A stretch of 64,000 bases of DNA. Origin: a virus. Within the stretch, counting starts at the first letter, position 1. Each line of letters starts with the position of its first letter. This document shows, piece after piece, positions 32,130 through 36,611 of this stretch. Made by a program: the position numbers and the translations under genes. The DNA is taken from positions 1 to 64,000 of the IMG/VR virus record IMGVR_UViG_3300037502_001442, one strand, 5' to 3'. Below the pieces are notes generated by a model. That model was given only the letters and a program-made list of their open reading frames with translations. It did no database searches and was not told where the DNA came from.

Positions 32130-32302
32130 TACTTCTTCTTGGTCTTCTTCTTGTCGTCTTTGCTTTGACCAGACTCAGAGAGAGCGATGGCGATGGCCTG
32201 CTTACGGCTCTTGACCTTGTCGCCAGAGGAGGACTTGAGTTTGCCCTCCTTGTACTCCCCCATGACCTTCTCGACCTTGGCTTGTTGTTTCTTGGTAGCC
32301 AC
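32129..32302 (-). CDS. Small basic protein (DUF6496-like)
   Basis: 57 aa from GTG 32302, chosen because AAGGAGG sits 5 bases upstream; the TTG at 32320 would place that site inside the gene. KVMGEYKEGKLKSSSGDKVK then SRKQAIAIALSE matches DUF6496 as I recall it. It is the first gene of the minus-strand Dps operon. Confidence 0.75.
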   Translation of the reverse strand: MATKKQQAKVEKVMGEYKEGKLKSSSGDKVKSRKQAIAIALSESGQSKDDKKKTKKK

Positions 32303-32496: not shown

Positions 32497-32997
32497 ATGA
32501 GCAACAACAAGTTCGGAGGGCCCTTCCTTCCCTTCCCACGATGGGCCATGAAGTCTCTGGTCGGGGACACCACAGCCATGGGGGTCCTCCTCCAGATGCT
32601 GATGTTCATGAACCCCGACAACCAGACCACGACGACCTCGTACGAGTACATCGCCAGCCAGATCGGCGTGGACCGTAGAACAGTTATTCGCGCCGTCAAG
32701 CGTCTGGAGTCCATCGGGGTCCTGGTCAAGAAGACCCGCAAGAAGACGGACGGAAACGGCAACCTCTCCAACCTCTACGTGATCAAGTTCGATAGCCCTG
32801 AGGTCTTCGAGGTAGTGTCACCAGAGTCACTAGGTAGTGTCACGGGTGACACTAGGGGTGGTGACACCAGTGTCACTAGGGTGGTGTCACGGGTGTCACC
32901 CAATCAAGAGTATAAGAACAAGAGTAAAAACAAGAGTAACCGTACCAAGAAGCCGAATTCGGGGTACGAGGACTTGAGGGTGGACGAGCGCATATGA
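32497..32997 (+). CDS. Winged-helix replication-initiator-like protein
   Basis: 166 aa from ATG 32497 (AGGAG at 32485-32489). Residues about 45-90 form a winged helix: SYEYIASQIGVDRRTVIRAV, KRLESIGVLVKK. This is like DnaD/RepA-type and other phage replication regulators. A Ser/Thr/Gly linker (about 105-135) follows, with repeated GTGTCAC-type DNA in it. The C-terminus is YEDLRVDERI, a motif repeated at the end of the next protein. It heads the replication operon. Confidence 0.78.
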   Translation: MSNNKFGGPFLPFPRWAMKSLVGDTTAMGVLLQMLMFMNPDNQTTTTSYEYIASQIGVDRRTVIRAVKRLESIGVLVKKTRKKTDGNGNLSNLYVIKFDSPEVFEVVSPESLGSVTGDTRGGDTSVTRVVSRVSPNQEYKNKSKNKSNRTKKPNSGYEDLRVDERI

Positions 32998-33398
32998 GCA
33001 CCGACGATTGGGGTAAGCCACTCGGGTGGGACCCAGACGACGCGCCTTCGGATCGGAAGCCCAAGAAGAAGCCCCGAGGCGGGGACTCGACCTACGGTCT
33101 CATCCAGTTCTTCACCGACAACCTTCCCGCGAACTCTTGGGGAGACCTGAACTCTCCCGTGAACACCCGCGCCATGTCTGCTGGCGTCAAGAAAGCCAAG
33201 GACGCTGGCTACACACCCGACGAGATTCGTGGGATGATGAAGGCGTTCCTCGTGGAGATACAGAACAAGCCGTTGCCCAATGGGGTTGCGCCGTGGAGGG
33301 GGTTCCTTGCTAACCTCGACCGCCTCGCCCACAAGGTGAGGACCAGCAACACAGCAACGCAGTCCTACGAGGACCTAGAGGTGGACCACAGAATATGA
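32994..33398 (+). CDS. Unknown replication-module protein with shared C-terminal motif
   Basis: 134 aa. A basic, Pro-rich N-terminus is followed by a small helical domain (about 35-115). The C-terminus YEDLEVDHRI copies the end of the upstream protein. ATG overlaps the upstream stop by 4 nt, and the same arrangement recurs at its own end. Gene order before a DnaC-like loader suggests a part in initiation. Confidence 0.7.
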   Translation: MSTDDWGKPLGWDPDDAPSDRKPKKKPRGGDSTYGLIQFFTDNLPANSWGDLNSPVNTRAMSAGVKKAKDAGYTPDEIRGMMKAFLVEIQNKPLPNGVAPWRGFLANLDRLAHKVRTSNTATQSYEDLEVDHRI

Positions 33399-34051
33399 GC
33401 GAACTACGGAGTCAGCGCTACTGGCGCAACAGAGAGCCCGAGGAGCGCGTACGCAACACGGCAGTTCCCAAGAGGTTCCGCGCCGATACTCTCGATACGT
33501 TCAAGAGCAACTCGGCGGACAAGGAGACACTGCGTCTCGTGCACAAGTGGGTTGACAATGCTGTTGAGTACGCAGAGCAGGGTCAGGGACTCTACATCTG
33601 CGGAGGCACGGGGTCTGGCAAGACGCACCTTGCTCAGGCAGTCCTGAAGCGAGTCGTGTACACGAACAAACTCTCGGGCATGTTCATCACCGCCGACAAG
33701 TACATCCAGTTGGCTTACAACGAGGTCAAGTTCGGTGACGACCTGCCAGAGGGCTATGAGGACCCGAACACGATGAAGTACCTTCAGGAGGTCTACGACA
33801 TCGTGGTGCTGGACTCCCTCGGCTCTGAGCGCCCCACGGACTTCACTAGGCGCACAATCATCTCTCTCATTGAGTCCCGCTATCACAACCAGTTGGCGAC
33901 CATCATCACGAGCACTCTCAGGCCAGATCAGGTCGAGTCGGTCTACAACACAAGCGTGCAGTCGATCATCAAGGAGTCGTGCTTCATCGCCCCACTCAAG
34001 AGCGGTGACTACCGAATCTCGAAGTGGCTGGATGACAATGCAGGGAAATGA
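33395..34051 (+). CDS. DnaC-like helicase loader (AAA+ ATPase)
   Basis: 218 aa. Walker A CGGTGSGKTH (about 68-77), Walker B IVVLDSLGSE (about 135-144), and sensor-like STLRPDQ near 174. Size and motifs match DnaC/IstB-type loaders that place the replicative helicase on DNA. A DnaB-like helicase follows two genes on. The end overlaps the next gene. Confidence 0.88.
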   Translation: MSELRSQRYWRNREPEERVRNTAVPKRFRADTLDTFKSNSADKETLRLVHKWVDNAVEYAEQGQGLYICGGTGSGKTHLAQAVLKRVVYTNKLSGMFITADKYIQLAYNEVKFGDDLPEGYEDPNTMKYLQEVYDIVVLDSLGSERPTDFTRRTIISLIESRYHNQLATIITSTLRPDQVESVYNTSVQSIIKESCFIAPLKSGDYRISKWLDDNAGK

Positions 34052-34478
34052 CATCGCCTCGTTCTCCCCTACCGCTCAGGGAGTGATTTTCGACGGCCTC
34101 CTCGCCTCGCCCCCGTCTGGTAACAAGGCCATCCTTGAGGCCATCCAGAAACGGCGCGACAGGTGGGACTCTGTCATCAACTTGTGGGAGCCGAACGACC
34201 TTCCGTTGAAAGCACTGAGTGACTCTGTCAACCGACTCGGTCTCGGCACCGATGTTTACACGTTCATCCACCCAGACGCGGCTGACGCGATTGACAAGTG
34301 GTTGGTGCGTAAAGGGATATCCACACCCGTGTACTACTACGAGACACCGCAGTTGCTGGAATACGACTTGCGCTTCAGCCGTGCGGTGCGTATCATCTAC
34401 ACCTCCAACGAGGAGTACGCACGAATCCTTGGAATAAGAGCAACCGTAGTTAACCCAGAGAGGGCTTGGACACCGTAA
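34038..34478 (+). CDS. Unknown replication-module protein (HAD-fold-like?)
   Basis: 146 aa from ATG 34038 (ATG 34032 is possible). It alternates beta and alpha segments, for example VYTFIHPDAADAIDKWLVR and VRIIYTSNEEYARILG. That could be a small Rossmann/HAD-like fold, but no catalytic Asp motif is present. Its stop overlaps the helicase start (TAATG). Confidence 0.65.
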   Translation: MQGNDIASFSPTAQGVIFDGLLASPPSGNKAILEAIQKRRDRWDSVINLWEPNDLPLKALSDSVNRLGLGTDVYTFIHPDAADAIDKWLVRKGISTPVYYYETPQLLEYDLRFSRAVRIIYTSNEEYARILGIRATVVNPERAWTP

Positions 34479-35737
34479 TGGCCAGCGCAGAGCATCTGCT
34501 CATTAGCAAGATCATCGAGACCCGCAGTCTCGAAGAGTGCATCAACGCTGGTCTTCGCCCCGACCACTTTGATTCCAAACTGGGGAACATCTACACGTGG
34601 ATTCTTTCGTACTGGAGAGAGTACGGAGAAGTGCCGACTGACCGTGTGGTCAAGCAGGAGTACGCCGACCTCCAGTTGCCCGACGCTCGCCCCGAGCCAA
34701 TGGCCCGACTCATCGATGAGTTGTACGACGCCTACAAACTCCGTCAACTGACCCTGTCCGTACAAGCGGCCAGCCCTGCCCTGAGCAACGGCAACACCGA
34801 GTCCGCCATGAAGGTCCTCTCAGAGGGTTTGCAGAAAGCGGCACTTGAGGTCGCCCACCTTCGTGACGTTGACATCATCCAGTCGTGGGAGCAGAGGCTT
34901 CAGCGCTACAAGGAGATGCGGGACACCCCGAACTTCCTGCGTGGCATACCGACTGGGTTCCATGGTCTGGACAAGATCACCGCAGGGTTCCGCCCCCAGC
35001 AGTTGATCACCTTCGTTGGTGAGGCCAAGAAGGGTAAGTCGCTCATGACGCTCATCATGGCTAACGCGGCCCACAACCACGGCATATCGCCCATGTACGT
35101 CTCGTTTGAGATGAGCATCGAGGAGCAGGAAGCCCGCTACGACGCCATCGTGGCTAACGTCTCGCACACCCGCCTCCTCCGTGGTGATTTCACCATGGCG
35201 GAACTGGAGCGCATTGAGAACGCCATTAAGATTCGCAAGAACATGCACCCGTTCTACATGACCGAGGATTCGTCGTCCCTCACGACGGTGAGCGCCATCG
35301 CTGGCAAGATTCAGCAGTACCGTCCTGGGCTCGTCATCGTCGACGGCGTGTACCTCATGGACGATGAGAACGGCGAACCCAAGGGGAGCCCGCAGGCTCT
35401 CACCAACATCACGAGGTCGCTCAAGAGACTCGCTCAGAGGTTCGATGTTCCTCTGATCGGCACCACGCAGGTTCTGTCGTGGAAGTTGGGTAACAAGAAG
35501 TCCCGACAGATAACATCGGACTCAATCGGATACACCTCATCGTTTGCTCAGGACTCTGACCTGATTCTCGGCGTTGAGTCGGACCCCGATATAGACAACC
35601 AAGCAATCATCCGTGTCGTTCTTGCCAGAACAGCACCCAAGGGCGAAGTTCGCATCAAGTGGGACTGGGAGAACATGGACTTCACGGAGGTGGGAGAAGA
35701 TGGAGAACATGTCAACAACGACGGCTGGTACTACTGA
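34478..35737 (+). CDS. Replicative DNA helicase (DnaB-like)
   Basis: 419 aa from ATG 34478. An N-terminal helical domain (1-120) precedes a RecA-type motor. Walker A is GEAKKGKS (about 180-187). MYVSFEMS near 207 is the H1a-type motif, Walker B is VIVDGVYLM near 286, and GTTQVLSWK near 328 is the H3 motif. It unwinds DNA at the fork and works with the DnaC-like loader and primase beside it. The last 38 nt overlap the primase gene. Confidence 0.9.
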   Translation: MASAEHLLISKIIETRSLEECINAGLRPDHFDSKLGNIYTWILSYWREYGEVPTDRVVKQEYADLQLPDARPEPMARLIDELYDAYKLRQLTLSVQAASPALSNGNTESAMKVLSEGLQKAALEVAHLRDVDIIQSWEQRLQRYKEMRDTPNFLRGIPTGFHGLDKITAGFRPQQLITFVGEAKKGKSLMTLIMANAAHNHGISPMYVSFEMSIEEQEARYDAIVANVSHTRLLRGDFTMAELERIENAIKIRKNMHPFYMTEDSSSLTTVSAIAGKIQQYRPGLVIVDGVYLMDDENGEPKGSPQALTNITRSLKRLAQRFDVPLIGTTQVLSWKLGNKKSRQITSDSIGYTSSFAQDSDLILGVESDPDIDNQAIIRVVLARTAPKGEVRIKWDWENMDFTEVGEDGEHVNNDGWYY

Positions 35738-36611
35738 CCTCGTCGATTTCCTCACGTCCATTGGCGTGGAAATCAAGAGGGTCGGACAAGAGATTTCTGC
35801 GAAGTGCCCCGTGCACGTCGCACGCACGGGCAAAGAGGACAGGTCCCCCTCGTGGTCCATGAACGCGGATACGGGACTGTGGATCTGCTACTCGTGCGGT
35901 GCCAAGGGCACGTTGCGCCAACTCGCAACCGAACTGACTGGCAAAGACGACTTTGAGATCATCACGATGATGATGGAGACCAGCGTTGACCGTCTGACCA
36001 TGCCTGCGATTGAGCGCAAGCCCGAGGTCGACATCAACAAGTACCTGAGTTACGGCCCCGTTCCCAAGCGGTACCTCAACAGCAGGAACCTGTCGGAAGA
36101 AGCGGCCAAGAAGAACGGCATTCGCTGGAACGACGAGAACAAGTCGTGGATCATCCCCATTGTTTCCTACGAGGGAGAACTGATGGGCTGGCAGGAAAAG
36201 GGCACCGACTTCACTCTCAACCACCCGACGGGTGTCCGCAAGGGACAGACGCTGTTCGGTATTGAGCGGGCTCAGTACCCGACGACCATCGTCGTTGAGT
36301 CGCCTCTTGACGTGGTGCGGTTTGAGTCCGCCTTCGGTGGCATGAACTGTCTCGCTACCTTCGGTGCGCAGGTGACCAGCATCCAGATGCAATTACTGTC
36401 CCTCGTGTCCGAGAAGATCATCATCGCTACGGACAACGACAAGGCTGGCATCGACAGCGCTAAGTCCATGTTTGACCGCATGCCCCTGCTCAAGGGTGGT
36501 GCATACTGGCTCAAGTATTCGCACACCAAGGCCAAGGACATCGGAGACATGACTGACGACGAACTCGAAGAAGCCATCGTCGGCGCCTCTGTCATCCCTT
36601 GGTGGTACTGA
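35700..36611 (+). CDS. DNA primase (CHC2 zinc finger plus TOPRIM)
   Basis: 303 aa from ATG 35700 (ATG 35709 is possible). CPVH (about 36-39) and CYSC (about 63-66) form the zinc-binding domain. TOPRIM motifs are VVESPLD (about 199) and ATDNDKAG (about 244). It is shorter than cellular DnaG because the C-terminal helicase-binding domain is missing or reduced. Coupled to both neighbours. Confidence 0.87.
   Translation: MENMSTTTAGTTDLVDFLTSIGVEIKRVGQEISAKCPVHVARTGKEDRSPSWSMNADTGLWICYSCGAKGTLRQLATELTGKDDFEIITMMMETSVDRLTMPAIERKPEVDINKYLSYGPVPKRYLNSRNLSEEAAKKNGIRWNDENKSWIIPIVSYEGELMGWQEKGTDFTLNHPTGVRKGQTLFGIERAQYPTTIVVESPLDVVRFESAFGGMNCLATFGAQVTSIQMQLLSLVSEKIIIATDNDKAGIDSAKSMFDRMPLLKGGAYWLKYSHTKAKDIGDMTDDELEEAIVGASVIPWWY

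Follow-up and report, generated by a model that had tools for sequence, protein, structure and literature searches.

The question raised by this locus is why two consecutive replication proteins that are otherwise dissimilar end in nearly the same ten residues, and what those residues might bind. The two proteins, designated P1 and P2, terminate in GYEDLRVDERI* and SYEDLEVDHRI*, respectively. They are encoded upstream of a helicase loader in the window, which is the whole 64,000-nucleotide stretch of DNA that was analyzed and is itself part of a 71.8-kb virus record. The features of the replication block are listed below.

32497-32997, + strand: P1, a lambda-O-like replication initiator with a winged helix, an iteron-coded linker, a K/N-rich linker and a C-terminal tail (Pfam HTH_36, 1.1e-10; PHROG 270)
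32811-32903, unstranded: four iterons (direct repeats) of ~23 bp, each near a GTGTCAC/GTGACAC dyad, within the P1 gene; putative origin
32965-32994, + strand: P1 C-terminal tail YEDLRVDERI (sequence; homologous P1 tails in relatives)
32976-32983, + strand: GAGGGTGG within the P1 tail codons, the Shine-Dalgarno of P2 (sequence; anti-SD duplex of -8.1 kcal/mol; AGG codon bias)
32994-33398, + strand: P2, a small helical putative co-loader (AlphaFold2 helices 33-122)
33003-33032, + strand: P2 N-terminal motif DDWGxxLGxD (D4, D5, W6, G7, G11 and D13 invariant in 22 sequences)
33366-33395, + strand: P2 C-terminal tail YEDLEVDHRI (D131 and R133 invariant in 22 relatives)
33378-33384, + strand: GAGGTGG within the P2 tail codons, serving in the window as Shine-Dalgarno for the loader gene (duplex of -10.8 kcal/mol)
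33395-34051, + strand: DnaC/DnaI/IstB-type AAA+ helicase loader that appears to lack an additional N-terminal domain (PHROG 50, DnaC-like loader, 8e-31)
34038-34478, + strand: gene between the loader and the helicase, conserved in relatives and overlapping the loader end (no Pfam match)
34466-35737, + strand: DnaB-like replicative helicase (PHROG 19, 2e-60; Pfam DnaB_C, 1.5e-28)
35613-36611: primase

P1 and P2 were compared with one another using BLASTP and profile comparison. The tail alone matches in BLASTP (8 of 10 residues identical, E = 0.003), and no domain common to the two proteins was detected by profile comparison. The description in the earlier note, that the proteins end in YEDLRVDERI and YEDLEVDHRI and are otherwise dissimilar, is confirmed by the sequence and by both comparisons. 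When the C-termini of + strand ORFs of at least 100 aa in the window were paired, the P1/P2 tails ranked first of 6,216 pairs with a score of 41, followed by a pair with a score of 35. A degenerate DNA pattern for the tail, allowing up to 3 mismatches, occurs at two places only in the window, where 0.16 occurrences are expected, and the whole 71.8-kb record contains just those two places again. A chance origin of the tail pair was rejected on the basis of the pattern expectation, the pair ranking, and the shuffling and permutation results presented below.

The best PHROG match for P1 is 270, replication initiation protein (2.3e-16), and several O-like PHROGs are matched as well; the N-terminal winged helix aligns with the O-like initiators of PHROGs 270, 391, and 678 at 2e-16 to 2e-13. 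The iterons are spaced by 22-24 nt with 67-88% identity to the reference copy and probably constitute a lambda-type origin. Past the winged helix no other domain was recognized in P1, and beyond the DNA-binding half the tail is the only conserved element. The arrangement is similar to lambda O/P, where an O-like winged-helix initiator with iterons in its own gene is followed by a loader gene downstream. It differs from lambda O/P in that the loader is a DnaC/IstB-type AAA+ ATPase, P2 stands as its own gene between initiator and loader, and in P1 a short tail takes the place of a C-terminal domain. The loader matches DnaC of Aquifex aeolicus (3ecc, 3e-21) as well as DnaI (4m4w, 9e-15); its Walker A sequence G..GSGKTH is invariant across clade A, and the AAA+ core is preceded by just ~25 residues.

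No Pfam or PHROG family was found for P2. No DnaD-type Pfam match at an E value of 5 or better was obtained among 21 P2 proteins by profile search, a method that can miss remote relatives. A tblastn search with P2 in cultured phages returned nothing significant, and no member of the family was detected among 84,980 genomes of bacteria and archaea. The AlphaFold2 model of P2 alone contains helices at residues 33-122, with both ends at low confidence and an unstructured tail. These flexible ends bear the only conserved motifs of the protein, namely DDWGxxLGxD and the tail; the former is a possible second docking motif. Comparison of the predicted fold with the PDB was uninformative, returning generic helical AAA+ lid-like bundles (Z of 6.3 or lower, Foldseek E of 0.9 or higher). 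In BFVD the matches were weak and fell on phage helix-turn-helix proteins (E of 0.07 or higher), a hint from the model that P2 may resemble the C-terminal part of fused initiators. The tail provides an annotation marker for P2, as a family lacking a Pfam or PHROG match here.

Related loci were collected by a loader search, which yielded 13 loci at 68-75% identity. P1 and P2 are located upstream of the loader in 13 of 13, and both proteins terminate in a tail of the Y[ED]D[LIV] type with the exception of P1 of L006, which has FGD. Searches with a P2 profile and a loader profile added nine more clades; the relatives are uncultured environmental phages. Across the clades, the core of the tail is Φ-D-x-[RK]-[LIWF], where Φ is usually hydrophobic and an aromatic residue is often found a few positions upstream. 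The tails vary in wording between clades and are alike within each genome. The P1 and P2 tails are, respectively, KVDQRLVDEETI with SIDPRLIGE in clade B, RVDSRLFS with GVDSRLLED in clade C, KVDRRLL with TTDRRLLRED in clade D, GKIDPRLMS with PKIDPRLMKD in clade E, GIDPRLKRKK with KIDPRLKK in clade I, and FVDGRLLDE with VEVDDRLL in clade J. In clades G and H, P1 carries TDSRW or SDPRW and P2 carries TVDKRL or KFDPRLEKYL. The motif YEDLxVDxRI of the earlier note is thus a real tail in both proteins, although its literal wording is clade-specific and the element shared across clades is the core.

The gene order P1-P2-loader and both tails are present at all loci with intact genes outside one group, clade F, which is considered below. 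Among distinct tail pairs, the core is found in P2 in 51 of 51 outside clade F and 0 of 9 within it. In P1 it is found in 46 of the 51 pairs outside clade F, the other five being clade A tails that have YDD and lack DxR. The frequency of the core in shuffled tails is 7-8%. Tails of P1 and P2 from the same genome match with a score of 24.0 versus 17.1 (sd 0.7) when partners are drawn at random (n = 60; no permutation out of 10,000 as high), and inside clades with p = 0.00045 (earlier set of 40 pairs); both figures are inflated by kinship and show matching, not independent events. The two proteins thus share a tail that is conserved at the protein level, matches within genomes, and changes in both proteins in the same clade. 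Three O-type initiators from cultured phages, all distant relatives, lack the tail; it is therefore not general to phage initiators, where the earlier note had proposed to look for it.

The core lies outside the globular part of each protein, behind a linker that does not align, and its distance to the C-terminus varies: it may occupy the last residues or lie up to ~15 residues from the end. Turnover of the lambda O initiator is known, and both tails are terminal, as would suit a degradation signal at the C-terminus controlling the abundance of P1 and P2 alike. The variable distance is unlike that of a signal read at the free C-terminus, however, and we regard this explanation as very improbable.

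A constraint at the DNA level would account for the tails as the by-product of a Shine-Dalgarno with an overlapping start, or of a DNA segment duplicated at both junctions. Both stop/start junctions of the window, at 32994 (P1/P2) and 33395 (P2/loader), have the overlap ATGA, and both Shine-Dalgarnos are located ~10 nt before the next ATG. The Arg codon of DxR is AGG in 23 of 30 distinct P1 tails, which also favors such a constraint, but in only 6 of 35 P2 tails (Fisher 1.5e-6, for sequences that are related). The Arg codons of the P2 tails are mixed (AGA 11, CGA 10, AGG 6, CGT 5, and CGG 3), without Shine-Dalgarno bias. The P2-tail Shine-Dalgarno of the window is not kept in relatives. The P2 tail is intact in clades B and D, L018, and L031 even though 107-131 nt separate the P2 stop from the loader start there, and it is also kept where anti-SD pairing is almost nil. 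Identical residues of paired tails have a codon identity of 36% within genomes versus 30% between them; gene conversion or DNA duplication is therefore not indicated, and gene conversion was rejected. The Shine-Dalgarno alone was likewise rejected as an explanation, and the DNA-level reading as a whole is largely refuted, retaining next to no probability. These data indicate that selection acts on the peptide and that the Shine-Dalgarno is a secondary use of the P1 tail. Hence, the tail DNA serves as the ribosome binding site of the next gene for both genes of the window, as first noted, and generally from P1 to P2; it does not do so generally from P2 to the loader, and this role is not the cause of the tail.

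Clade F (L097-L106, L150, L155, and L158) keeps the gene order and departs from the tails. Its P2 proteins end in ...DVSEWK or a close variant with the core absent, and its P1 proteins end in GYxIDxxLL, in which the D and aliphatic residues are kept and the Arg is gone. The loader tree groups clade F with clade I as sisters (99/98); both proteins of clade I have full tails, and all other clades are tailed. Since clade F is nested among tail-bearing clades, the loss of the P2 tail is derived. The tail is thus not indispensable on P2. The alteration of the P1 tail in the same clade is in the direction expected if the two tails serve a single partner; as a single clade has lost the tail, this co-change rests on one event. 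The earlier note had looked to homologues of both proteins that lack the tail with the gene order kept as evidence against docking. Clade F supplies half of that picture, with a tailless P2 and an altered P1, and because the loss is derived the docking claim is restricted rather than refuted. In this clade, P2 and the loader are separated by a small ORF that shows a C2H2-like zinc-finger pattern (L097, 3222-3593).

Columns kept in at least 93% of the sequences outside clade F were compared (34 in the loader, 14 in P1, and 16 in P2). The sole departures of clade F are D131 and R133 in P2 and one loader residue:

33881-33883: loader Tyr163, the sole conserved loader position altered in clade F

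Mapping of the receptor by clade-F-specific substitutions thereby yields Tyr163 alone as a lead. This residue is probably a common one in the loader family, and its change therefore need not concern the tail.

The locus L053 combines two types. It is 93-100% identical to L044 in most 60-base windows up to position ~1420 and 98-100% identical to L052 from ~1361, which places the switch at ~1361-1420, within the conserved iterons. In its P1, a DNA-binding half of one type is joined to a tail of the other, and its P2 and loader match the type of the tail. This sequence is consistent with a tail that goes together with P2 and the loader, and it may be a recombinant or an assembly chimera.

Precedents for tails in helicase loading are available. 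In Bacillus, the DnaD tail binds DnaB and the DnaB tail binds the AAA+ domain of DnaI (PMC13326638), and in Staphylococcus aureus a pocket of the DnaI AAA+ domain accommodates the C-terminal tail of 77ORF104, a phage protein (PMC4887207). The DnaD-DnaB-DnaI system of Bacillus subtilis is alike in that an initiation protein, a co-loader, and an AAA+ loader form a relay with docking residues on flexible C-terminal tails (PMC13326638). Its two tails bind different partners, whereas P1 and P2 carry one motif; in addition, the phage P1, P2, and loader genes are adjacent and overlapping, and P2 is without a DnaD-type Pfam match. Phage 77 ORF104 with DnaI resembles the proposed arrangement in the placement of a C-terminal tail in a pocket of the loader AAA+ domain (PMC4887207). 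ORF104 inhibits the host loader, however, whereas the role proposed here is the recruitment of the phage's own loader.

By analogy with these systems, we place at about an even chance the reading that P1 and P2 share a docking motif on a flexible tail, that this motif fits a single socket, for which the AAA+ loader is the most likely site, and that P2 is a co-loader. P1 would bind the iterons inside its own gene. P2, encoded between the initiator and the loader, would act as a co-loader bearing the same plug as P1, and both plugs would fit one socket, most likely on the adjacent AAA+ loader. The loader, together with the helicase, would be held by P2 and then handed to origin-bound P1; alternatively, P1 and P2 might hold the loader simultaneously via different subunits. 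We infer the common partner, the loader as that partner, and the hand-over. A more specific version falls somewhat short of even probability; in it, loading would proceed by the exchange of identical tails on one loader socket (socket swapping), and the motif would move as a unit with the P2-loader cassette.

The structure prediction of the tail with the loader that the earlier note had suggested was carried out on the natural P2-stop-loader stretch of L002, where P2 and the loader share a reading frame and only a stop codon plus 15 nt lie between them; the stop was read as Gly. In this AlphaFold2 model the tail has a pLDDT of ~45 and both domains are mostly at 88-98. No docking of the tail is seen, but a single chain whose tether is short has little power to reveal it. 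The proposal of a docking peptide is well supported by the retention of the tail by both proteins in every relative outside clade F and by within-genome matching far above random; the loader is its probable partner, although the tail is disordered in the P2-loader model. The loader end (DYR) was aligned to the P2 tail by MAFFT and was taken as an alignment accident.

The helical domain of P2 could instead have a groove into which its own tail folds, and the P1 tail would mimic and displace it, freeing P2 for the loader or helicase. In Bacillus, the tail of DnaB is predicted to bind DnaB itself and so to occlude its DnaD and DnaI sites (PMC13326638), and clade F, with the P2 tail lost and a form of the P1 tail kept, would represent the mechanism without this regulation. 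However, the two models that include P2 both give the tail low confidence, and the clade F P2 domain is unchanged at conserved positions; we consider this mimicry unlikely. The shared partner could also be a DnaB-like helicase, SSB, a primase, or a host protein. The helicase gene is located two genes downstream, but the precedent tails of Bacillus and S. aureus bind a co-loader or AAA+ loader, and no SSB was recognized among the part of the window's proteins that was scanned. A partner of this kind is rather unlikely.

The tail pairing is real and wider than first noted, and on the docking reading, which is the best one, it would be a variant of tail-mediated helicase loading. The hand-over of the loader and helicase by initiators is an open question in bacterial replication, for which C-terminal tails make the decisive contacts in Bacillus. 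At this locus, two successive members of a loading chain share a single short motif. The natural variants (clade A, clades G and H with DPRW in P1, and clade F without the P2 tail) make a shared socket testable with short peptides.

Small proteins of three Streptomyces phages, LuckySocke gp109, GiJojo gp100, and a protein of pSt2308, are similar to P2 in having an N-terminal DxLWG or ELWG and in being encoded directly upstream of a DnaC-like loader. They differ from P2 in that the match is not significant (E of 0.1-1) and no DxRL tail is present. The P2-like DLWG/ELWG proteins of Streptomyces phages are located at 2914-3387 of L107 (LuckySocke gp109), 2923-3399 of L108, and 2914-3369 of L109. 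Elsewhere in the window, positions 32184-32281 align over 98 bp, with ~82% of the DNA identical, to a gene annotated as hypothetical in Caudoviricetes sp. MW202879.1 from Manatee Spring.
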